This document shows positions 1,244 through 13,653 of a DNA stretch of 14,181 nt, piece after piece. The notes below the pieces were generated by a model. The model was given only the letters and a program-made list of their open reading frames with translations. It did no database searches and had not been told where the DNA came from. This DNA comes from a candidate division KSB1 bacterium (GTDB taxonomy: Bacteria > Zhuqueibacterota > JdFR-76 > DREG01): contig JADFJB010000115.1 of assembly GCA_022566355.1 (NCBI GenBank), positions 1 through 14,181 of the forward strand. The letters are read 5' to 3'. The translations under genes were made by a program, and so were the position numbers. The stretch's first letter is position 1. Every line of letters begins with the position of its first letter.

Positions 1244-3883
1244 CTACAAGCCCAGCCAGTAGGTTGCTTTTACCATAAAAATATTGTCGGCGCGGATATC
1301 CATTAAGCGGTTGAAGGATCTTCTTAATTCAAATTCGCCGATATTTTCGTATTCAGAGCGGCTTTGGGTCCATACGAAAAATAACGTAGAGCCCGGGGAG
1401 TATTCCCAACGCAATACCGCATTACCACGCAAAGACACGATGTTAAAATCCGGGTTCGACAATTCGATTGGCGCTGCCGGACCCGGACCGTCCGGATCTG
1501 CTATGTAATTATCTTCGGAAAAAGTAGAATTCCCTTCGCCATAGACATTAAAGTCATAACTTTCCGGTCGGGCGAGTTCCTTGAAATCCGTATAATCGCC
1601 TGAGGAGATTAGTGGCTGTGCATAGAGTTGTAAGCTAAGATTTGGACTGAAAGTCCAATTTAAACGGATATTTGCTGAAAATGATTTTTGCTCCAGGGCG
1701 CCGAAAACATAACGATTTCCATAAGTTTGGGTTGCAGTGGCATCCTCAAACGAACCAAGGTATTGAGCCGGTTCCTGCATGCGGTTGTAACTCGGGGAAA
1801 CATTTAGAGAAATATTAGAAGCAGGTTTCCATTCGATATTGCCATCGATGCCCCATTGGCGAAATCCGGATTTTCCTCTTCCACCGAAAGATCCCAACCC
1901 AAACACCCAGGCATGCCTACGGTCCGTGTTTAACCAGCCGCTGGCAGACCAGTTGGGCAGGTTAAGGGTTAAGGGTCCGCCGCGGGTCCTTCTATTGTTT
2001 AAAGTTTCCGGATTATAACTGAAACTCCAATTTATACCATAATAATTTAAGAATTGGATATTACCGAATTGAAAGAAACCCTGGCCGATATTATTATTAT
2101 CAAAATCATAACTCCGGAAAGTGGCAAAAGTTAACCAGAGACTGCGGTAATATTGGGTGGGTTTTGTCCAACTATACCCGGTAGCGAGGTGAGCATTAAT
2201 CAGGTCTGTCCGCCACATAAAGCCCAGATCATTGACATCAAAATTCGGATGGATCATACCCAAAGCGGAATTCAAAAACCAGCTGCCTTTTTGGCGATTA
2301 AGCATCAACCTGCCGGCCCAGCCGGTAAGCGTTGTGGCATTACTATCAATACTTACATGGCCTGCATCCGGTCTTTGGAAATAATGGCTGGAGCTGTTCT
2401 GTAACGAGAGCATCCTGGTTTTATTGGCGTCTATGTGAGAAAGTCCTGCCCATCCGGTAATCACCCAAACTTTGTTTTTATCCAAAAACGTCCAGCCATC
2501 GACACCGCCGGAGAAAGCCGAGCTGTTCATATTATCGCGCAGGCCATCATTCTTAAACTGACGTGAAGTTAAGGTGGAAATGACACCCAATGCTTGTCTG
2601 CCTTCATTCATTTCTTTTTGTGCCCTAAAGACGCCATAATAAGTCATGGGCTCTACTTCTGCTGATGACCGATTCCCTTGAAAATCGAGGTCGGCATATT
2701 CGCGCTGGGTTAACGCGTGCACCATGCCAAAATTGATGTTATTCTGAATCTTTCCTGAGAGTTTTGCCGCTCCCAGAATTGTTGTGCCATCAGGGACATT
2801 TGCATAATCGTAGTCTGGCAAACTGCCTTGCGGCGCCCTGCCGATTCTTCGACTATGAAAAAAGTTTGGATTCCCCCAATTAAAGCCCCAATTGCTGCTG
2901 GAGCCGCCGCGACCAAAATTAAAAGTCGAGGAACCCTCGATAAAAAACGGCCTTTTTTCGCTAAAGAAAGTTTCCACATCGCTTAGGTTCACAACGGCAG
3001 GATCCACTTCCACCTGGCCAAAATCCGGGTTTATGGTCGCATCCAACGTCAAGCTGTTACTAAGCCCGATTTTAATATCGGCGCCAAAACCCGGTAAATA
3101 CTTAGAGCCGTCGTGAAACGGATTTCCGGCAGCCGGGTGGGTAAATTCGCCTTTCGTTCTCACGTAGGGCAATATCTCCACCTGGCGCGAGGGTTTTATA
3201 TCATTGATACCTACCAATTCGACAAAACGGGAAACGAAGCCACTTTCGTTCTTCGGTGTGAAGACCAGGTAATCCCGCTCATTATTTCGAGCAATATCCC
3301 TGCGGAAGTTAACCCCCCAGATTTGTTCGGTTTTATTTTTGAATCGCAGCTGGGAAAATGGGATACGCATTTCCGCAGTCCATCCTTCTTCATCGATATT
3401 GACCTTGCCTTCCCATACACCATCCCAGGAATTATCGTCCCAATCATCATTAAAAAGGATGCCGTCACTGCGGGTTCCACCGGCATATAAAGAGAAAAAG
3501 AATCCACTGCGTTTATCCAGGTATGGATCCACCATAAATTGAAAAATATCAGATTGAAGATGAGAATCCCTTCGTCCCAATCGTGCGATGATCGAATCAG
3601 GAGCGCTGTCGTACATCCTTGCCCCTACATAGATTGCGTCGTCATCATAAGCAACCCAAACAATTGTGTTTTGGCTGGGTTCGGCATTTTCAATGGGGTC
3701 ACGTTGTTTAAAATTTGTAATCCCGAAACCGTTTTGCCAAACAGCTTCATCGAGTTTACCATCGATAACCACTGCGTTCTTCAAACGAATAGCACGTACT
3801 TGTTTATCGACATCCGAAAGAAGAATTCCGGGTAAAATAGAAAGAACGGTAAAAAAAAGTAGCATTATGAATACGCGTTTCAT
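1244..3883 (-). CDS. DUF5916 outer-membrane protein with N-terminal CBM9-like domain
   Basis: This is an 879-residue protein with a Sec signal peptide (MKRVFIMLLFFTVLSILPGILLS). A CBM9-like carbohydrate-binding fold follows at about residues 27-230, with the hallmark VIDGKLDEAVW, then WVAYDDDAIYVGARMYD and WTAEMRIPFSQLRF. After it come the DUF5916 blocks LDATINPDFGQVEVDPAVVNLSDVETFF and SEKRPFFIEG. The long C-terminal half is rich in alternating aromatic/polar strands typical of an outer-membrane beta-barrel and ends in ATYWLGL. The start at 3883 is chosen because GGAGG (3889-3893) lies 5 nt upstream; a TTG at 3895 would place the SD inside the gene. It is monocistronic, with long noncoding DNA upstream. 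The role is unproven: probably glycan or polymer binding/uptake at the cell surface. The gene appears intact, with no frameshift seen. Confidence 0.9.
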   Translation of the reverse strand: MKRVFIMLLFFTVLSILPGILLSDVDKQVRAIRLKNAVVIDGKLDEAVWQNGFGITNFKQRDPIENAEPSQNTIVWVAYDDDAIYVGARMYDSAPDSIIARLGRRDSHLQSDIFQFMVDPYLDKRSGFFFSLYAGGTRSDGILFNDDWDDNSWDGVWEGKVNIDEEGWTAEMRIPFSQLRFKNKTEQIWGVNFRRDIARNNERDYLVFTPKNESGFVSRFVELVGINDIKPSRQVEILPYVRTKGEFTHPAAGNPFHDGSKYLPGFGADIKIGLSNSLTLDATINPDFGQVEVDPAVVNLSDVETFFSEKRPFFIEGSSTFNFGRGGSSSNWGFNWGNPNFFHSRRIGRAPQGSLPDYDYANVPDGTTILGAAKLSGKIQNNINFGMVHALTQREYADLDFQGNRSSAEVEPMTYYGVFRAQKEMNEGRQALGVISTLTSRQFKNDGLRDNMNSSAFSGGVDGWTFLDKNKVWVITGWAGLSHIDANKTRMLSLQNSSSHYFQRPDAGHVSIDSNATTLTGWAGRLMLNRQKGSWFLNSALGMIHPNFDVNDLGFMWRTDLINAHLATGYSWTKPTQYYRSLWLTFATFRSYDFDNNNIGQGFFQFGNIQFLNYYGINWSFSYNPETLNNRRTRGGPLTLNLPNWSASGWLNTDRRHAWVFGLGSFGGRGKSGFRQWGIDGNIEWKPASNISLNVSPSYNRMQEPAQYLGSFEDATATQTYGNRYVFGALEQKSFSANIRLNWTFSPNLSLQLYAQPLISSGDYTDFKELARPESYDFNVYGEGNSTFSEDNYIADPDGPGPAAPIELSNPDFNIVSLRGNAVLRWEYSPGSTLFFVWTQSRSEYENIGEFELRRSFNRLMDIRADNIFMVKATYWLGL

Positions 3884-3990
3884 AACAACCTCCAAAAAAG
3901 ATTTAATTATTGTGAGTCTGAAATTAAGACGATAAGAGAGCGGGAAAAGTTACAGAATAATTTTTAAGAGTGGGATTTGTGGAAAAAAGA

Positions 3991-4362: not shown

Positions 4363-5087
4363 ATGAATCAGATTGAAGATGCAGTTTGGGAAGAAAAACC
4401 TACCTTAAGAACACCAATCTACAAAATTAATGAAAGACCAAAAACCTGGTGGGAATGTATCCTTTTTGGCTGGCAACATACCCTCGTCGATATATCGCCA
4501 TTTGTTTTACCATTAGCTGTTGCCGCTGCAGTTGGCATGTCCATACATGAGAGAGCACAATTCATCAATTTTTGCCTGTTTTCTATGGGCATTGCTACCC
4601 TGCTTCAATCAACAATTGGCAATCGCCTGCCAATCATCCAGGGACCATCTGCTACGCTTACCGGGACTATAGTACCCATTGCCAGTCAAATGGGAGCTTC
4701 ATTTCTTTTGGGGAGCTGTATTTGTTGGTGGGTTAATCGAAATGATTATTGGCGCTTCCAAAATTTGGCGCACTGCTTGTAGCAATGCCCAGGTCGGTAC
4801 TAGGCGGAGTTTTTATAATCGTTTGTGGAATGATTTTCGTATCTGGTACCAGGATTTTGAATGTTGCGAAAAACACCAATGCCAATTCCTTCATTATAAG
4901 TATTTCCTTGATTTGTGCAATCTGTGTTCCCATTTATGCGACTTATTCCTTAGGATCGGAGTGGTTGGATCCGTTACCGATATTTGTTAAACTTTTGCTG
5001 ACCAACTCTGTTGTGTTGGCAGTGATTTTGGCTGTATCTCTTAACTTGATTTTAAACATTATTTTCAAAGGGGAAGAAAAAGAATGA
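4363..5087 (+). pseudogene. NCS2-type uracil/xanthine permease, frameshifted and internally deleted
   Basis: The start has an AAGGA SD 7 nt upstream. The first ~110 residues carry NCS2 landmarks: the QH pair in the first membrane helix (FGWQHTLVDISPFVLPLAV) and RLPIIQGPSATLTG in the third. A frameshift in the T-run near 4703-4711 moves the coding sense from frame 1 to frame 2 (WGAVFVGGLIEMIIGASK). Near 4750-4765 the sense jumps again to frame 3, giving FGALLVAMPRSVLGGVFIIV and the C-terminal helices to 5087. Intact NCS2 proteins are about 430-450 residues. Only about 240 codons remain, so roughly 200 residues are missing from the middle. It once imported a nucleobase, which fits the convergent cytosine-deaminase operon next door. 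Sequencing error could explain one frameshift but not the missing core. Confidence 0.83.
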
Positions 5088-5198: not shown

Positions 5199-6605
5199 CT
5201 ACAGATATGGTAATCCTATGGGAAATAAATCCTGAACCCGCTGAGCCAATGCCAACACACTTTCTTCACTCCATGGTTTTCCAACAATTTGTAAGCCAAC
5301 CGGCAGTTTTTCACTGGTTAATCCACACGGGACACAACCAACAGGAAGTCCGGTTAGGCTAAGTAAAAATGTGGGTGCAAACCAATCCACATACGTTTTC
5401 ATCTTTTTACCTGCAACAGTTTCCGGATAATTTTGTTCAACAGGGAAAGGCGAGACAACCATGCAAGGCGTCAAAAGAGTGTCATAATCTTCAAAGAAAC
5501 TTTCAAATTTTTGTTGGATTTTAAGTCGCGTCTGTTCAGAAGCTGCCAATTGTTCTACTGTAATTTTAAGAGCTGCCCGTATATTCCCTCTTAGATTTTC
5601 TCCTAATTCATCTAGCTTGTCTAATCGATTAAAGTGCTGCGCAACCATTCTATATCCACGTAAATCCAGAAAGGCATCCCGACCGAAAGATAAATCAAAA
5701 TCGATTTCATCGACTTCCATTCCTATTTGCGATAATTCAAACGAAGCGTTGCGACAAATTTGTCCAAGCTCATCTTCTATTCCGATGCCGGCAATATCCT
5801 GGCAATAGGCTACCTTTAGCTTGTTCGGTAATTTTTTCCGGACTGCAGAAATAAAATCCCTCTCTTTATTGGGTTGGCAAAACGGCGTTTGTTCACCGGG
5901 ACCACTGACTGCCTGGAGCATTAAAGCCAAATCCTCAACCGTTCGAGCCAGCCCTCCCGTTACGGAGAGGCTATCCCAAAGATAGTTTGTAGGTTCGGTT
6001 GGAACCAATCCGGGGCTTGGCCTTAAACCCACAACGCCACAGAACGATGCCGGAATCCGAAGGGAACCACCCAAATCCGTGCCCTCGGCTAAAGTAATCA
6101 TACCACTTGCTAATGCAGCAGCGCCGCCACCTGTGGATCCTCCAGCGCTTAATTTTGTATTCCATGGATTCCGGGTTGCACCAAAGACTTCATTAAATGT
6201 ATTTCCGCCAGTAGCAAATTCCGGCGTGTTTGTTTTACCTAAAATAATAGCACCGGCTTGTTTGAATCGTTGAACAACCAGGGCATCTTCTTTAGGAATA
6301 TGTGTTGAGTAAAGCGGACTTCCATAAGTTGTGCGGATTCCGGCAGTTTCTGTGACATCCTTAATTCCGACCGGAAGCCCGTGCAATATCCCCAGTTTAT
6401 CACCATTAACTATTGCCTGTTCTGCTTTGTGCGCTTCATCTAAAGCGCTTTCGTTCACGGTACAAACCGCATTAATAACGCCATTGTATTTTTCGATTTG
6501 GCTCAAGCACGCTTCCACAACCTCGACAGGTGACAACTCTTTGTTGCCAATCAACCTGCGCAACTCAGTGGCCGACTTTCGGGCAATTTCATTTTCCGCA
6601 ATCAT
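5199..6605 (-). CDS. Amidase-signature family hydrolase (candidate ureido/amide hydrolase)
   Basis: This 468-residue protein is the usual length for the amidase-signature family. The catalytic triad is clear: Lys82 in LPVGIKDV, cis-Ser157 in SAGGSTGGGAAALASG and nucleophile Ser181 in GTDLGGSLRIPASF. Its spacing (75 and 24 residues) is identical to that of well-studied members. The reaction would be hydrolysis of a linear amide or ureido bond in the cytoplasm; the substrate cannot be read from sequence. It is the last gene of the operon, with only 9 bp between the cyclase stop and its ATG. A GGAGG lies about 15 nt upstream at the end of the cyclase gene, a slightly long spacing. Next to a malonyl-CoA synthetase, a ureidomalonase-like activity (ureidomalonate to malonate plus urea) is plausible but inferred. 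There is no obvious tRNA-amidotransferase (GatB/C) context. Confidence 0.9.
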   Translation of the reverse strand: MIAENEIARKSATELRRLIGNKELSPVEVVEACLSQIEKYNGVINAVCTVNESALDEAHKAEQAIVNGDKLGILHGLPVGIKDVTETAGIRTTYGSPLYSTHIPKEDALVVQRFKQAGAIILGKTNTPEFATGGNTFNEVFGATRNPWNTKLSAGGSTGGGAAALASGMITLAEGTDLGGSLRIPASFCGVVGLRPSPGLVPTEPTNYLWDSLSVTGGLARTVEDLALMLQAVSGPGEQTPFCQPNKERDFISAVRKKLPNKLKVAYCQDIAGIGIEDELGQICRNASFELSQIGMEVDEIDFDLSFGRDAFLDLRGYRMVAQHFNRLDKLDELGENLRGNIRAALKITVEQLAASEQTRLKIQQKFESFFEDYDTLLTPCMVVSPFPVEQNYPETVAGKKMKTYVDWFAPTFLLSLTGLPVGCVPCGLTSEKLPVGLQIVGKPWSEESVLALAQRVQDLFPIGLPYL

Positions 6606-6614
6606 ACGATTGGT

Positions 6615-7400
6615 TTAATCCTCCACAAATGCAATTACACGGGAAAATGCCGCTTCCCCTCCTTTAAATTTCCAGGGAAAACAACCGATAATCAATCGTT
6701 TATTTTGAATCTCCGGAGCTGAAAGATCACCACCCAGGTTTTCAATATGCATACAGTTATGCGGGAAAAGAACATTGTGGGTCAACTGGTAATCTTCGTC
6801 AGGGAATAATTTCTCCATATTCGCTTTACCGTATTTTTCTTCACATTTGGCACGAACCTTATCACAATGGCCATGCATACCTTTTCCCAAAAACCTTCCA
6901 ATCGGTAAGTCCATTGGATGGTCGGTGGAAACAACATCCACACCCCAAATCTTAATCTTTTTATCAAGCAGCCAGGGAACCATGTCCGGATGCGCCCCCG
7001 GGTGCATGTGAATATATTTTTCTTCATCCGGTTCGGAGCCAAATTGTGCATGCCGATGCCAGCCCGTATGCAGGATCAGTAAATCGCCTTGGTTTACCTG
7101 GACGCGCTGTTCGATCATATCCGGAGTATACACCGCCAATTCATCCATTTCATCGGTTAAATCGACGATGACGCCAGGGCCGTAAAGCCAATCGAGTGGA
7201 ATTTCGTCGATGGTCATACCGTTGGTTACAAAATGGCGCGGAGCGTCCAAATGGGTTCCCATATGGTTCGAAGTTTGAATATACTGCGCATTGACACCAT
7301 GCTCAGATTTGCGCTTGATATATTTCACTTCAAAGGGTGGGTAGTATGGCCAAGCTGGAACTTCCTGGTTTAACAGCTGTGAAAGATCGTACAATTTCAT
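6615..7400 (-). CDS. Cyclase family metal-dependent hydrolase (kynurenine formamidase/isatin hydrolase-like)
   Basis: This 261-residue protein has the family metal-binding signature HMGTHLDAPRHF at residues 46-57 (His46, His50, Asp52, His56) and the conserved LLILHTGW strand near residue 110. The C-terminus has HIENLGG and GGEAAFSRVIAFVE, also typical of the family. Characterised relatives are Mn- or Zn-dependent and open formamides or lactams (kynurenine formamidase, isatin hydrolase). A GAAGGAGG site 5 nt before ATG 7400 makes the start secure. It lies 43 bp after the ligase stop and 9 bp before the amidase. In this operon it is the best candidate for opening a cyclic imide/amide such as a pyrimidine-derived ring. 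That role is inferred from context only. Confidence 0.88.
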   Translation of the reverse strand: MKLYDLSQLLNQEVPAWPYYPPFEVKYIKRKSEHGVNAQYIQTSNHMGTHLDAPRHFVTNGMTIDEIPLDWLYGPGVIVDLTDEMDELAVYTPDMIEQRVQVNQGDLLILHTGWHRHAQFGSEPDEEKYIHMHPGAHPDMVPWLLDKKIKIWGVDVVSTDHPMDLPIGRFLGKGMHGHCDKVRAKCEEKYGKANMEKLFPDEDYQLTHNVLFPHNCMHIENLGGDLSAPEIQNKRLIIGCFPWKFKGGEAAFSRVIAFVED

Positions 7401-7443
7401 GAAGCCTCCTTCAATCCTTGACTGTTCATTTATTTTGTTGATT

Positions 7444-8925
7444 TTAAAATAATTTTTTAACAGCTGGTTTAATAACTTTTCCCATTGAATTTCGCGGCAG
7501 TTCCTCTAAAATCAATAATCTAGACGGAATTTTATAGTTTGCCATTCTTTCTTTACTCCATGCACGCAACTCCGATAATGACAATTCATAATGATCTGCT
7601 AAAATAACTACCGCAGAAACTCTCTCGCCCCAATCGGGATCCTCAACGCCCACGACACAACAATCAGAAATCGCAGGATGATTGCGCAAAACTTCTTCAA
7701 TTTCAAGCGCCGATACTTTATATCCACCAGTCTTGATGATATCAATCGAGCTGCGTCCGAGTATCCGAAAATAGCCATTTTCAATCACCGCAACATCGCC
7801 GGTGCAAAACCATTCGTTCCAATATGCTTCCTTTGTAGATTCCGGTTTTTGCCAATATTCCTTGAAAACATTTTCTCCTTTTATTCTAATTTCCCCGGAT
7901 TTCCCCTCCTTATGAATTGTTTTGTTTGAATCGTCAAAAAGCCGGACAGTTACCCCGGGAAGAGGCATTCCTACACTTCCCGGCCTTCGTTCACCATGGT
8001 ATGGATTCGATAGTGCCATGCCGATTTCAGTCATACCGTATCTTTCCAGCAGATTGTGGCTGCTGATTTCTTTCCATTTCTCAAATACATGCACCGGCAG
8101 CGCTGCCGATCCCGAAACCATTAATCGCATATTCCTGCATGCATCGGACATCTGTTTTCTTTTCGTTTGATTTGCTTTTTTCCAGCAGTTTAATAATTTG
8201 ATGTAAACGGTAGGCACTGCCATAAAAAGTGTAAGACCGCCTTCTATGAATCGGTCCCAAATTAAATCAGCGTCAATTTTTGGCAAGAATTCACAAACGG
8301 CTCCACTCCATAAAGCACAGGATAATGCATTGATGATCCCATGGGTATGATGCAGCGGAAGCACGTGTAGAATATGATCATCTGAAGACCATTCCCACGC
8401 CTCAGTTAAACAGGTGATTTGTGCATCGATATTGCGATGAGTTGTGACGACACCTTTGGGTTTATTGGTAGTTCCGCTAGTGTACAAAATCATTGCTCTT
8501 CGCTCTTTATCGATTTCAGGATGTACTTTCTTCCGGTTATTTTTGAATTCAGATGTTAAGACCAAACGAATGCTTTGCTGTTTTGATATCGAACTGAGTT
8601 TATTTTTAAATATCGGGTGGAGTACTAATATTTCAACTCCGGAATCCTGTAAAACATATTCGATTTCCGGTAAAGGATGTGTGACACATAAAGGAACCGC
8701 AATACCACCGGCCAGCCAAATTCCCCATTGGATGGCGACGTAATCAAAACCAGGAGGAACCATAAAGGCAACTCTGGCCTCATTCAAGTCATCCCGATTT
8801 TCCAACAAGGTTGAGGCAATTTTCTGTGCTTTTTCGAGTAACAGGCGATAGGAATGCGTTCCGTTTTCATCTAAAATGGCTGTGCGATCCGGAAATAACT
8901 TTGCTCTCTCTACAATTTGCGGCAC
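7444..8925 (-). CDS. Malonyl-CoA synthetase, ACSF3/MatB-like AMP-forming ligase
   Basis: This 493-residue ANL-superfamily ligase has all core motifs. These are the P-loop YTSGTTNKPKG (148-158), LPLHHTHGI (189-197), SGSAALP (271-277), ERYGMTEIGM (294-303), the hinge-side TGD (375-377), the GRSSIDIIKTGGYK block (390-403) and the C-terminal catalytic Lys483 in PRNSMGK. The run VSGSAALP...KW...LLERYGMTEIGMALS and the IDIIKTGGYKVSALE block agree closely with human mitochondrial ACSF3 and with bacterial MatB, both malonate-activating enzymes. The predicted reaction is malonate + ATP + CoA to malonyl-CoA. The start is GTG 8925, only 3 nt after the deaminase stop, with GGAGAGGAA just upstream, so translation is probably coupled. 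Methylmalonate or another short dicarboxylate remains possible. Confidence 0.87.
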   Translation of the reverse strand: MPQIVERAKLFPDRTAILDENGTHSYRLLLEKAQKIASTLLENRDDLNEARVAFMVPPGFDYVAIQWGIWLAGGIAVPLCVTHPLPEIEYVLQDSGVEILVLHPIFKNKLSSISKQQSIRLVLTSEFKNNRKKVHPEIDKERRAMILYTSGTTNKPKGVVTTHRNIDAQITCLTEAWEWSSDDHILHVLPLHHTHGIINALSCALWSGAVCEFLPKIDADLIWDRFIEGGLTLFMAVPTVYIKLLNCWKKANQTKRKQMSDACRNMRLMVSGSAALPVHVFEKWKEISSHNLLERYGMTEIGMALSNPYHGERRPGSVGMPLPGVTVRLFDDSNKTIHKEGKSGEIRIKGENVFKEYWQKPESTKEAYWNEWFCTGDVAVIENGYFRILGRSSIDIIKTGGYKVSALEIEEVLRNHPAISDCCVVGVEDPDWGERVSAVVILADHYELSLSELRAWSKERMANYKIPSRLLILEELPRNSMGKVIKPAVKKLF

Positions 8926-8928
8926 GGC

Positions 8929-9381
8929 CTATTCCTCTCCAATGTCTTCATTCCAAATATCCGGATTAGCGGAAATATAATCCGCCAGCAATTTAACACA
9001 TTCCTCTGAGTTGAGATCAACCACTTCTACATCATTTTCAAGAAGCCATTGGATGCCCCCTTTAAAATTTACCGATTCACCAACAATCACAGTTCCTATT
9101 TTAAATTGTCGAATGAGCCCGCTGCAATACCAGCATGGGGCAAGGGTTGTGACCATAATTTTATCGCGATAACTGCCTTGCCTTCCTGCTTTACGAAATG
9201 CATCTGTTTCTGCATGAACCGAAGGATCGTCTTCCTGAATGCGACGGTTATGCCCTCTGCCGAGTAAATTCCCATCCTGTTCAAACAAAGCAGCGCCAAT
9301 TGGGATGCCGCCTTCCTGCAAACCCTTTTTTGCTTCATCGATGGCAATTTGCAGCATTTGTTGATAACTGTTTTGATTCAT
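8929..9381 (-). CDS. Cytosine deaminase-like protein (FCY1-type CDA fold)
   Basis: This zinc-dependent cytidine-deaminase-fold protein has His59-Ala-Glu61 (VHAETD) and Pro85-Cys86-x2-Cys89 (PCWYC), numbering from the alternative GTG. Several features match yeast-type cytosine deaminase FCY1 rather than tRNA adenosine deaminase TadA: the GRGHN loop whose Asn contacts the base, the VGESVNFKGG segment, and the C-terminal PDIWNEDIGE whose Asp contacts the substrate amino group. The predicted reaction is cytosine (or a related aminopyrimidine) to uracil plus ammonia. ATG 9381 is chosen over GTG 9390 because a promoter-like -10 lies only about 8 bp upstream of that GTG; neither start has a good SD. 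It is the first gene of the four-gene operon and is followed after 3 bp by the ligase. Isoguanine or another base as true substrate cannot be excluded. Confidence 0.85.
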   Translation of the reverse strand: MNQNSYQQMLQIAIDEAKKGLQEGGIPIGAALFEQDGNLLGRGHNRRIQEDDPSVHAETDAFRKAGRQGSYRDKIMVTTLAPCWYCSGLIRQFKIGTVIVGESVNFKGGIQWLLENDVEVVDLNSEECVKLLADYISANPDIWNEDIGEE

Positions 9382-9396
9382 TTTTTGCACAATCTT

Positions 9397-9700: not shown

Positions 9701-9793
9701 ATGCTGCATAAATCGACTGGTTATGTAGAAAAAAATATAACAAAATGCGGTTCATGTAAAAAATGTCAGATATCAAAGATGAAAAAGATGTGA
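9701..9793 (+). CDS. Possible 30-residue leader ORF with CxxCxxC motif
   Basis: ATG 9701 follows AGGA (9688-9692 region) at about 8 nt and opens a 30-codon frame containing TKCGSCKKCQ, a compact Cys cluster. It ends at TGA 9791-9793, overlapping the first 31 nt of the DUF6398 gene in another frame. The DUF6398 start itself has no visible SD, so coupled translation is possible. Alternatively it is a frameshifted former N-terminus carrying a zinc-binding knuckle, or chance. No homologue is recognised. Confidence 0.2.
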   Translation: MLHKSTGYVEKNITKCGSCKKCQISKMKKM

Positions 9794-10377
9794 AGCTTAC
9801 AGAGATTAAGAATCTGATTCACGATTTTTGCGAGGATTGTTTAAATTCCGAGATAGAAGGATTTTGTTCTAAATTGTGTGACACACTTGGCAGAAAAAGG
9901 AAAATAAATATTCTTCGAAGCACGAGCGAACAATGGGCTGCTTCAATAGTCTATGTGATAGCACTTCTCAATTTTCTTTTTGACCAAGATAACGAATATT
10001 ACATTACTGCCGATGACATCTGCGTTTTCTTTGAAACAAAAAAATCAACGACAGGAAATAAAGCGAAACAAATTCAGAAATTGTGTAATTTGTCTATAGG
10101 AGCAGATGGCTACTGTTTGGAAAAAATAAGTGATATGTTCACATTTTATGAAACAGAATCTGGGTTTATAATCTCCAAAGCTATGTTTGATAAGCAGATG
10201 AACGAAGTCCAGCAAGCAGAGGAAGAGGATTTTGTAGAAAACAGAATGAGGAGGGAAACTAAAGAATCAATTATGGAAAAAATGCAAAAAGAGAAACAGG
10301 AGCGTTTATCCGTTTTAAAAAAGAAATCCGAAGAGCGTAAAGACAATGATAACCAATTGGGATTATTTGATAGTTAG
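9763..10377 (+). CDS. DUF6398 domain protein with C-terminal clamp-binding-like motif
   Basis: This 204-residue protein has a core at about residues 14-130 that resembles DUF6398: a helical FCEDCLNSE...FCSKLCDTLGRKR segment, then ILRSTSEQWAASIVYVIALLNFLFD, then ITADDICVFFETKKSTTGNKAKQI. The last stretch reads like a helix-turn-helix or cyclin-like helix pair. Residues about 145-195 are highly charged (EEEDFVENRMRRETKESIMEKM...) and probably form a coiled coil. The last residues are NQLGLFDS, where QLGLF (198-202) fits the bacterial sliding-clamp binding consensus QL(S/D)LF. The function of the family is unknown. The frame is closed by TAA just upstream of ATG 9763, fixing the N-terminal limit; no clear SD precedes it. 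It stands alone, divergent from the deaminase operon. Confidence 0.75.
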   Translation: MSDIKDEKDVKLTEIKNLIHDFCEDCLNSEIEGFCSKLCDTLGRKRKINILRSTSEQWAASIVYVIALLNFLFDQDNEYYITADDICVFFETKKSTTGNKAKQIQKLCNLSIGADGYCLEKISDMFTFYETESGFIISKAMFDKQMNEVQQAEEEDFVENRMRRETKESIMEKMQKEKQERLSVLKKKSEERKDNDNQLGLFDS

Positions 10378-12952: not shown

Positions 12953-13009
12953 TTGTGTTTGTGCTTTAGTATAAATATATTCCCATAGTCATAATAATTG
13001 GGTCATAAT
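12953..13009 (+). promoter_or_regulatory. Candidate toxin-antitoxin promoter and operator direct repeat
   Basis: TTGTGT (12953-12958) and TATATT (12976-12981) are separated by 17 bp. Just downstream, GTCATAAT occurs twice (12988-12995 and 13002-13009) with a 14-bp period, a plausible binding site for the Phd-type antitoxin, which normally autoregulates its operon. Both assignments are pattern-based. Confidence 0.33.
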
Positions 13010-13036
13010 TCGTCCGCAATAAATGGGAAACCAAAA

Positions 13037-13267
13037 ATGAAAACAATACCAGCTGGAAAATTTAAGGCGCAATGTCTTGCCTTGCTTGATGCCGTGGCAC
13101 AGACCAATGAGCCACTGGTCATCACCAAACATGGCAAACCTGTTGCGAAATTGCTGCCTTTCGACAACAAAAAAGACAGCACCGACGCTTCTCTTAAGGG
13201 GCTTGCAACATTTATCGGTGATATTATTTCTCCCATCGATAACGAATGGGAGGCCGCAAAAGAGTGA
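13037..13267 (+). CDS. Phd/YefM-family antitoxin
   Basis: This 76-residue protein begins MKTIPAGKFKAQCLALLDAVAQT and continues EPLVITKHGKPVAKLLPF, the standard Phd/YefM N-terminal DNA-binding and dimerisation fold. The C-terminal tail (SLKGLATFIGDIISPIDNEWEAAKE) would wrap the toxin. ATG 13037 is preferred over a TTG at 12998 because family members start at this point and the TTG extension lacks homology. A weak GGGA lies about 8 nt upstream. The gene overlaps the toxin by 4 bp (GTGA), the classical coupling of toxin-antitoxin pairs. Expected role: neutralise VapC and repress the operon. Confidence 0.88.
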   Translation: MKTIPAGKFKAQCLALLDAVAQTNEPLVITKHGKPVAKLLPFDNKKDSTDASLKGLATFIGDIISPIDNEWEAAKE

Positions 13268-13653
13268 TCGTTCTCGACACACATATCTGGTTCTATTTTA
13301 TCAATGATGGGCCTGAAAAGCTGCCAGCTAAAGCACGTAAAGCCATTAGAGACAACGACGTCCTCGGCGTGAGTATTATCTCCTGCTGGGAAATAGCCAT
13401 GCTGGTTGCTAAAAACAGGCTCAGATTCAGCATCGATGTCCAGGATTGGATTACACAAGCTTTAAAGTACAAAGGCATCAAGTTAATAGAGCTCACTCCA
13501 GAAATTGCTGTTTTAGCCACCAGATTACCTGGTGAGTTCCATAAAGATCCGGCAGACAGAATCATTGCTGCATCCTGCCTGAAACTCGGCGCCCCACTCA
13601 TTACCCTCGACAAGAGCATCAAAGAATGGGGTCATGTTCATACCATCCCCTAA
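13264..13653 (+). CDS. vapC: PIN-domain ribonuclease toxin VapC
   Basis: This 129-residue protein is read from GTG 13264, which shares bases with the antitoxin stop and has GGGAGG (13248-13253) 10 nt upstream. An in-frame ATG at 13246 would put that SD inside the gene. The PIN acidic residues are present: Asp5 in VLDTHIW, Glu43 in SCWEIAML, Asp98 in KDPADRIIAA (Asp95 nearby) and Asp116 in LITLDKSI. VapC proteins are Mg/Mn-dependent RNases that cleave tRNA or rRNA; the target cannot be predicted here. The subfamily with DTHIWFYF and LP...FHKDPADR usually pairs with Phd-type antitoxins, as seen. The stop lies about 30 bp from a kinase relic on the opposite strand. Confidence 0.9.
   Translation: MIVLDTHIWFYFINDGPEKLPAKARKAIRDNDVLGVSIISCWEIAMLVAKNRLRFSIDVQDWITQALKYKGIKLIELTPEIAVLATRLPGEFHKDPADRIIAASCLKLGAPLITLDKSIKEWGHVHTIP

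Follow-up and report, generated by a model that had tools for sequence, protein, structure and literature searches.

The oxidative degradation of pyrimidines has been described in Rhodococcus, where uracil dehydrogenase, barbiturase and ureidomalonase take uracil through barbiturate and ureidomalonate to malonate. We know of no sequences assigned to the uracil dehydrogenase or the ureidomalonase. The route has been described as rare, with barbiturase homologues in only 3% of the surveyed genomes (PMC3758960). The Rut and reductive (dihydrouracil) pathways begin with the same base and follow different chemistry. In the open-licence literature only the classical oxidative pathway was found, with no PF04199 barbiturase, uracil molybdenum hydroxylase or ureidomalonate carbamoyltransferase, although subscription journals could contain such a description. 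For the anaerobic degradation of allantoin, E. coli uses AllFGH, which acts on oxalurate, has AllF and AllG as subunits and yields carbamoyl phosphate and oxamate (PMC11326118).

The stretch of DNA analysed here (the window, 14,181 nucleotides of a candidate division KSB1 bacterium) carries four unbroken open reading frames on the minus strand, separated by gaps of 3, 43 and 9 bp and facing the remnant of a nucleobase permease. This arrangement had been proposed in a first-pass annotation, and all the reading frames, together with the pbuX-like remnant, were verified:

8929-9390, minus strand: putative FCY1-like (yeast-type) cytosine deaminase (PF00383), with a GTG start and an alternative ATG at 9381
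7444-8925, minus strand: putative MatB/ACSF3-like (methyl)malonyl-CoA synthetase (AMP-binding; NCBIfam PRK07514; similarity to RpMatB)
6615-7400, minus strand: PF04199 cyclase-family metal hydrolase, putative barbiturate ring opener (Pfam; HxGTHxDxxxH metal motif)
5199-6605, minus strand: amidase-signature hydrolase, putative ureidomalonate cleavage (PF01425, 344 bits)
4363-5087, plus strand: NCS2 (pbuX-like) nucleobase permease pseudogene, with an internal deletion and a frameshift

Probably, the window encodes the lower part of a pathway that degrades pyrimidines oxidatively, built from enzymes unrelated to the Rhodococcus barbiturase. Gene content, conservation, co-occurrence and the pattern in which parts replace one another are observed, whereas the substrate of each enzyme is inferred. 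The initial reading of the locus as a variant barbiturate-type operon is well supported at the genomic level, through the conservation of the genes, their neighbours, their co-occurrence and the swapping of parts.

The remaining genes of the window include a RhuM-family gene (PF13310) at 139-921 on the plus strand, apparently truncated or frameshifted, as it matches profile positions 2-161 of 252 only; a large DUF5916 protein (PF19313, 883 aa) at 1244-3895 on the minus strand, which faces the permease relic; and a DUF6398 protein (PF19935) at 9763-10377 on the plus strand, upstream of the operon and divergent from it. Two small overlapping plus-strand genes (12998-13267 and 13246-13653) resemble, by eye, a Phd/YefM antitoxin and a VapC-like PIN toxin.

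A Pfam scan of the ten window proteins placed all four operon products well over the Pfam cut-offs. The cyclase scores 132 bits against PF04199 (cut-off 23), its sole Pfam match, while PF09663, the family of canonical barbiturase and cyanuric acid hydrolase, matched none of the ten, as the first reading had held. A search for PF09663 across the window genome gave no match, its controls being likewise silent, and the same was true, controls included, of a canonical barbiturase search in 396 genomes from the phylum to which the genome of locus L056 (labelled Acidimicrobiia) belongs. For the cyclase, a scan of 84,980 species genomes returned 107 confirmed relatives; the best 80 of the 107, 68-85% identical, were used as loci. 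The metal motif HxGTHxDxxxH is present in 77 of the 80 aligned loci. Foldseek, run on an AlphaFold2 model from which the fold match alone was used (pLDDT below 50 at residues 15-59 and 164-174, active-site region), returned isatin hydrolase as the top matches; kynurenine formamidase and a further PF04199 cyclase are also among the nearest folds. Both isatin hydrolase and kynurenine formamidase share the fold and the metal motif with the window cyclase, and isatin hydrolase opens a cyclic amide, as proposed here. However, the structural match corresponds to about 24% identity or less, and the window cyclase, unlike those two enzymes, belongs to a tightly conserved clade of its own that is linked to nucleobase genes. 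Kynurenine formamidase was considered as an identity for the cyclase and rejected, the TIGR03035 arylformamidase model scoring 68.5 bits against an equivalog cut-off of 223.

The ligase has as nearest solved homologues RpMatB of Rhodopseudomonas (E 5e-79) and ScMatB of Streptomyces (E 7e-72). Its best NCBIfam model is the malonyl-CoA synthase PRK07514, at 387 bits, and since this lies under the cut-off of 558, we file the enzyme as MatB-like and not as a certified MatB member; nor does it reach the cut-off of any other named NCBIfam model among those listed. The MatB hallmark ERYGMTE, whose arginine we take from the MatB structure papers to be the malonate-binding residue, is kept in 26 of the 27 ligases of cyclase loci. 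The amidase carries the Ser, cis-Ser and Lys boxes of its signature (GLPVGIKD, GGSTGGGAA and GTDLGGSLRIPA in the window sequence). The Ser and cis-Ser boxes are conserved; because the tblastn pieces are truncated, the Lys box of the amidase and the Mo Glu box could be counted only incompletely.

The nearest PDB match of the deaminase is yeast cytosine deaminase (E 1e-31), and all three members checked keep the zinc site (HAE and PCxxC) as well as the WxED box at the C-terminus. A deaminase stands in the same position at 3 of the 80 loci apart from the window (L021, L024 and L048), and is an optional part of the gene set; L024 holds MoL (the hydroxylase large subunit), CoxG, MoFAD (its FAD subunit), NCS1, deaminase, cyclase and ligase in one run. 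Aligned with an intact relative, the NCS2 relic retains residues of about 16-145 and 358-465, at about 50% identity, having lost the middle ~210 aa and acquired a frameshift near 4710-4725; it also matches the pbuX subfamily piecewise. A second NCS2 relic lies beside the same amidase in the sister genome G001 (contig C501; L111, 6442-6768). The two are deleted differently; the permease has thus decayed in both genomes, and both carry an NCS1 permease. An intact NCS2 homologue adjoins the cyclase at nine loci, for instance L087.

The gene set is conserved well outside the window: in many phyla cyclase, amidase and ligase occur as a group, in surroundings that resemble a pathway. The absence of conservation that would have told against the initial reading was therefore not seen. 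Neighbouring genes were clustered and annotated through cluster representatives, and presence and motifs were counted by tblastn; ORF calls in the G+C-rich loci pick shadow frames. Among the best 80 of the 107 relatives, the amidase is found at 52 loci, on the strand of the cyclase in all 52, and the ligase at 27, while an NCS1 permease neighbours the cyclase at 28 and an NCS2 permease at nine. A molybdenum hydroxylase subunit is present in 41 of the 54 loci that span at least 12 kb, and shares the cyclase's strand in 43 of 43 cases for the large subunit and 44 of 44 for the FAD subunit. The recurrent block runs in the order [2Fe-2S] subunit, Mo subunit, often CoxG, FAD subunit, often NCS1, cyclase, and finally amidase and/or ligase. 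A molybdenum hydroxylase and an intact nucleobase permease adjoin the cyclase in dozens of relatives.

The record labels of these relatives read KSB1, Calditrichaeota, Gemmatimonadetes, Acidobacteria, Planctomycetes, Caldilineaceae, Clostridia and Hadesarchaea, and orthologues span KSB1/Calditrichota, Gemmatimonadota, Acidobacteria, Chloroflexi, Clostridia and archaea. The closeness of bacterial and archaeal cyclases suggests that the clade spread horizontally between the two. In genomes related to that of the window, full-length cyclase orthologues are 78-85% identical and the remaining PF04199 proteins about 25-40%; the only other high-identity match, in G001, belongs to the same clade and is a fragment at a contig edge. 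At L045, L059 and L067 the pyrimidine block lies, by eye, back to back with another gene set that resembles xanthine dehydrogenase and includes PuuD-like and 5-hydroxyisourate hydrolase-like genes, which would place the degradation of purines next to that of pyrimidines.

The oxidase step was noted early on to lie outside the window. A candidate three-subunit molybdenum hydroxylase, of the kind found beside the cyclase in relatives, lies elsewhere in the window genome, on contig C119, in an operon of MoFeS, MoL (75% identical to that of L041), CoxG, MoFAD and NCS1; XdhC and MobA-like maturation genes accompany it. With the hydroxylase/NCS1 block on C119 and the lower genes on C115 (the window), the pathway is divided between contigs. 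Across the relatives, a candidate oxidase and a nucleobase transporter are genomically linked to the putative ring-opening enzyme. Among 59 related genomes the cyclase occurs in eight and the hydroxylase in seven, with six shared (p=4e-6, shared ancestry ignored). As a replicate in another phylum, 298 Gemmatimonadota genomes gave 29 and 29, with 28 shared (p=5e-37, shared ancestry again ignored). The link is not merely positional, since the two lie on different contigs in four Gemmatimonadota genomes and about 0.8 Mb apart on one chromosome in G072. Co-occurrence of genes does not prove chemistry, and to our knowledge no member of the cyclase, hydroxylase or amidase clades is known to be active on the proposed substrates.

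Two further observations concern the window genome (G000). The start of C119 (L106, 3-218) holds a C-terminal piece of an NCS1 permease, 97% identical, at the contig edge, with an intact copy at 1012-2505, reflecting either a tandem duplication or an assembly break. Contig C10 (12000-31000; L130) holds, by eye, a purine-type cluster with an XdhD-like Mo enzyme and YgeX-, YgeY-, YgeW- and HyuA-like genes. A D-hydantoinase model match on C10 was set aside as a sign of the reductive pyrimidine route, its neighbours being this purine-type cluster.

Mechanistically, the deaminase would convert cytosine (or 5-methylcytosine) to uracil (or thymine), and NCS1 or NCS2 permeases would import uracil and probably thymine. 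The molybdenum hydroxylase of C119 would oxidize uracil to barbiturate and thymine to 5-methylbarbiturate, and the PF04199 cyclase would open the barbiturate ring to ureidomalonate. The amidase would then release malonate plus urea, or ammonia and CO2, and the MatB-like ligase would activate malonate to (methyl)malonyl-CoA. The capture of malonate by the ligase, already part of the first-pass annotation, gains support from the hallmark motif and from CoA-transferases that stand in the ligase's stead, malonate remaining its presumed substrate. Several points count against this pathway: the oxidase and ring-opening genes lie on separate contigs, the deaminase is rare, the window permease is dead, NCBIfam calls the L041 hydroxylase a CO dehydrogenase, and the ligase stays below named-model cut-offs.

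The amidase had been assigned as a ureidomalonase giving malonate and urea. The release of urea is doubtful, because no bona fide urease was found in the window genome or its 58 relatives, where the few matches are fragmentary and cover about 39-53 of the 121 profile positions, and urea would be wasted in these genomes. The cell may excrete urea or split it by another route, or else the amidase yields ammonia and CO2. The latter, a sub-variant of the same pathway rather than its competitor, would proceed stepwise from ureidomalonate through malonamate to malonate, and we hold it tentatively as a real possibility. Besides the missing urease, it draws on the related amidase-signature enzymes biuret hydrolase and malonamidase, and on the separate amidase that the proposed anaerobic version described below has for the malonamate that its carbamoyltransferase would leave. 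On the other hand, urea may indeed leave the cell or be split by some other enzyme, and the known ureidomalonase gives urea (PMC3758960).

Taken globally, the loci treat their parts as interchangeable. Amidase and AllF are mutually exclusive in all loci but L049, and ligase and family III CoA-transferase in all loci without exception. In anaerobes, AllF/AllG homologues and a nitrilase-type amidase take the place of the amidase, the nitrilase-family gene being near AllF/AllG-type genes at seven loci; in the archaeon L092, AllF/AllG are followed by a family I CoA-transferase gene. A carbamate kinase over its cut-off is found at L069, a methylmalonyl-CoA epimerase at three loci (the L087 copy over the NCBIfam cut-off), and an mmdA-like subunit at L095 (best model, 864 bits, under the cut-off of 999). 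The cultured strain Lutispora saccharofermentans m25 carries the full set of genes. Ureidomalonate is oxalurate plus one CH2. The swaps of amidase for AllF and of ligase for CoA-transferase are expected if ureido(methyl)malonate is the shared intermediate, and are hard to explain with oxalate or an amino acid as product; the epimerase and the mmdA-like gene fit a breakdown of thymine via methylmalonate.

We lean towards an anaerobic, energy-conserving version around the same cyclase in Clostridia, Chloroflexi and archaea. In its proposed form, an AllF/AllG-type carbamoyltransferase would split ureidomalonate into carbamoyl phosphate and malonamate, carbamate kinase would make ATP from the carbamoyl phosphate, and malonate or methylmalonate, set free by the nitrilase-type amidase, would enter metabolism by way of CoA-transferase, epimerase and decarboxylase. 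If true, pyrimidine bases would be fermentable through oxidation to barbiturate, in bacteria and archaea.

An alternative we consider improbable would have the cluster break down not a pyrimidine but an imidazole ring or one derived from purines, such as hydantoin or parabanate, via oxalurate to oxamate and oxalate, with the Mo enzyme acting as a xanthine dehydrogenase. The hydroxylase does belong to the xanthine dehydrogenase superfamily, the best models of the permeases are xanthine and allantoin permease, and AllF/AllG are known from allantoin degradation. However, activation of the acid falls to a MatB-like ligase that bears the MatB hallmark, or to a CoA-transferase whose best score is against succinate-glutarate and not oxalate transferase, and some loci have the epimerase and mmdA-like gene beside them. 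A cytosine deaminase within the operon also speaks against this alternative, as do the distinct purine-type cluster of the window genome on C10 (XdhD-, HyuA- and YgeW-like) and the additional xanthine dehydrogenase and urate genes that several Gemmatimonadota have alongside (by eye).

Least probable is a reading of the hydroxylase as an aerobic CO dehydrogenase of form II that is linked to the cyclase incidentally, with the operon serving to scavenge amides and malonate in general: the hydroxylase does come with CoxG and XdhC/CoxI genes, and NF040766 names the L041 large subunit (274-2646) aerobic CO dehydrogenase at 957 bits against a cut-off of 950, but the window genome's own large subunit stays under that cut-off at 912 bits, the form I CO motif AYxCSFR occurs in 0 of 45 large subunits, most carrying PVRGAGR or PYRGAGR (PVRGAGR in the C119 copy), and the hydroxylase co-occurs tightly with the cyclase and nucleobase permeases. 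A form I CO dehydrogenase was ruled out by the missing AYxCSFR. With AYxCSFR absent, the L041 call is possibly a systematic misannotation. The data suggest that uracil or thymine hydroxylases are hidden among the genes currently annotated as aerobic CO dehydrogenase.

With oxidative pyrimidine degradation as the preferred reading, the system is a new, non-orthologous variant of that pathway, and probably has an anaerobic, ATP-yielding branch of similarly proposed chemistry. The data point to a second, unrelated ring-opening enzyme across several bacterial phyla and archaea, offer candidate genes for uracil dehydrogenase and ureidomalonase, and suggest that anaerobes may gain ATP from pyrimidines; what emerges looks like a widespread, unrecognised microbial use of uracil and thymine via barbiturate.

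Compared with the reductive pathway, the window genome does have a dihydropyrimidinase-like gene, but within the purine-type cluster. As in E. coli AllFGH/AllK, AllF and AllG homologues adjoin the cyclase in anaerobes, once with carbamate kinase; AllH was not identified as a neighbour, the proposed substrate is ureidomalonate and not oxalurate, and a nitrilase-family amidase comes next. With the Rhodococcus route our variant shares the proposed intermediates uracil, barbiturate, ureidomalonate and malonate. It differs in the ring opener, a PF04199 metal hydrolase instead of the AtzD/barbiturase (Toblerone) fold, in the activation of malonate inside the operon, and in a distribution that reaches far beyond actinobacteria, to anaerobes and archaea.
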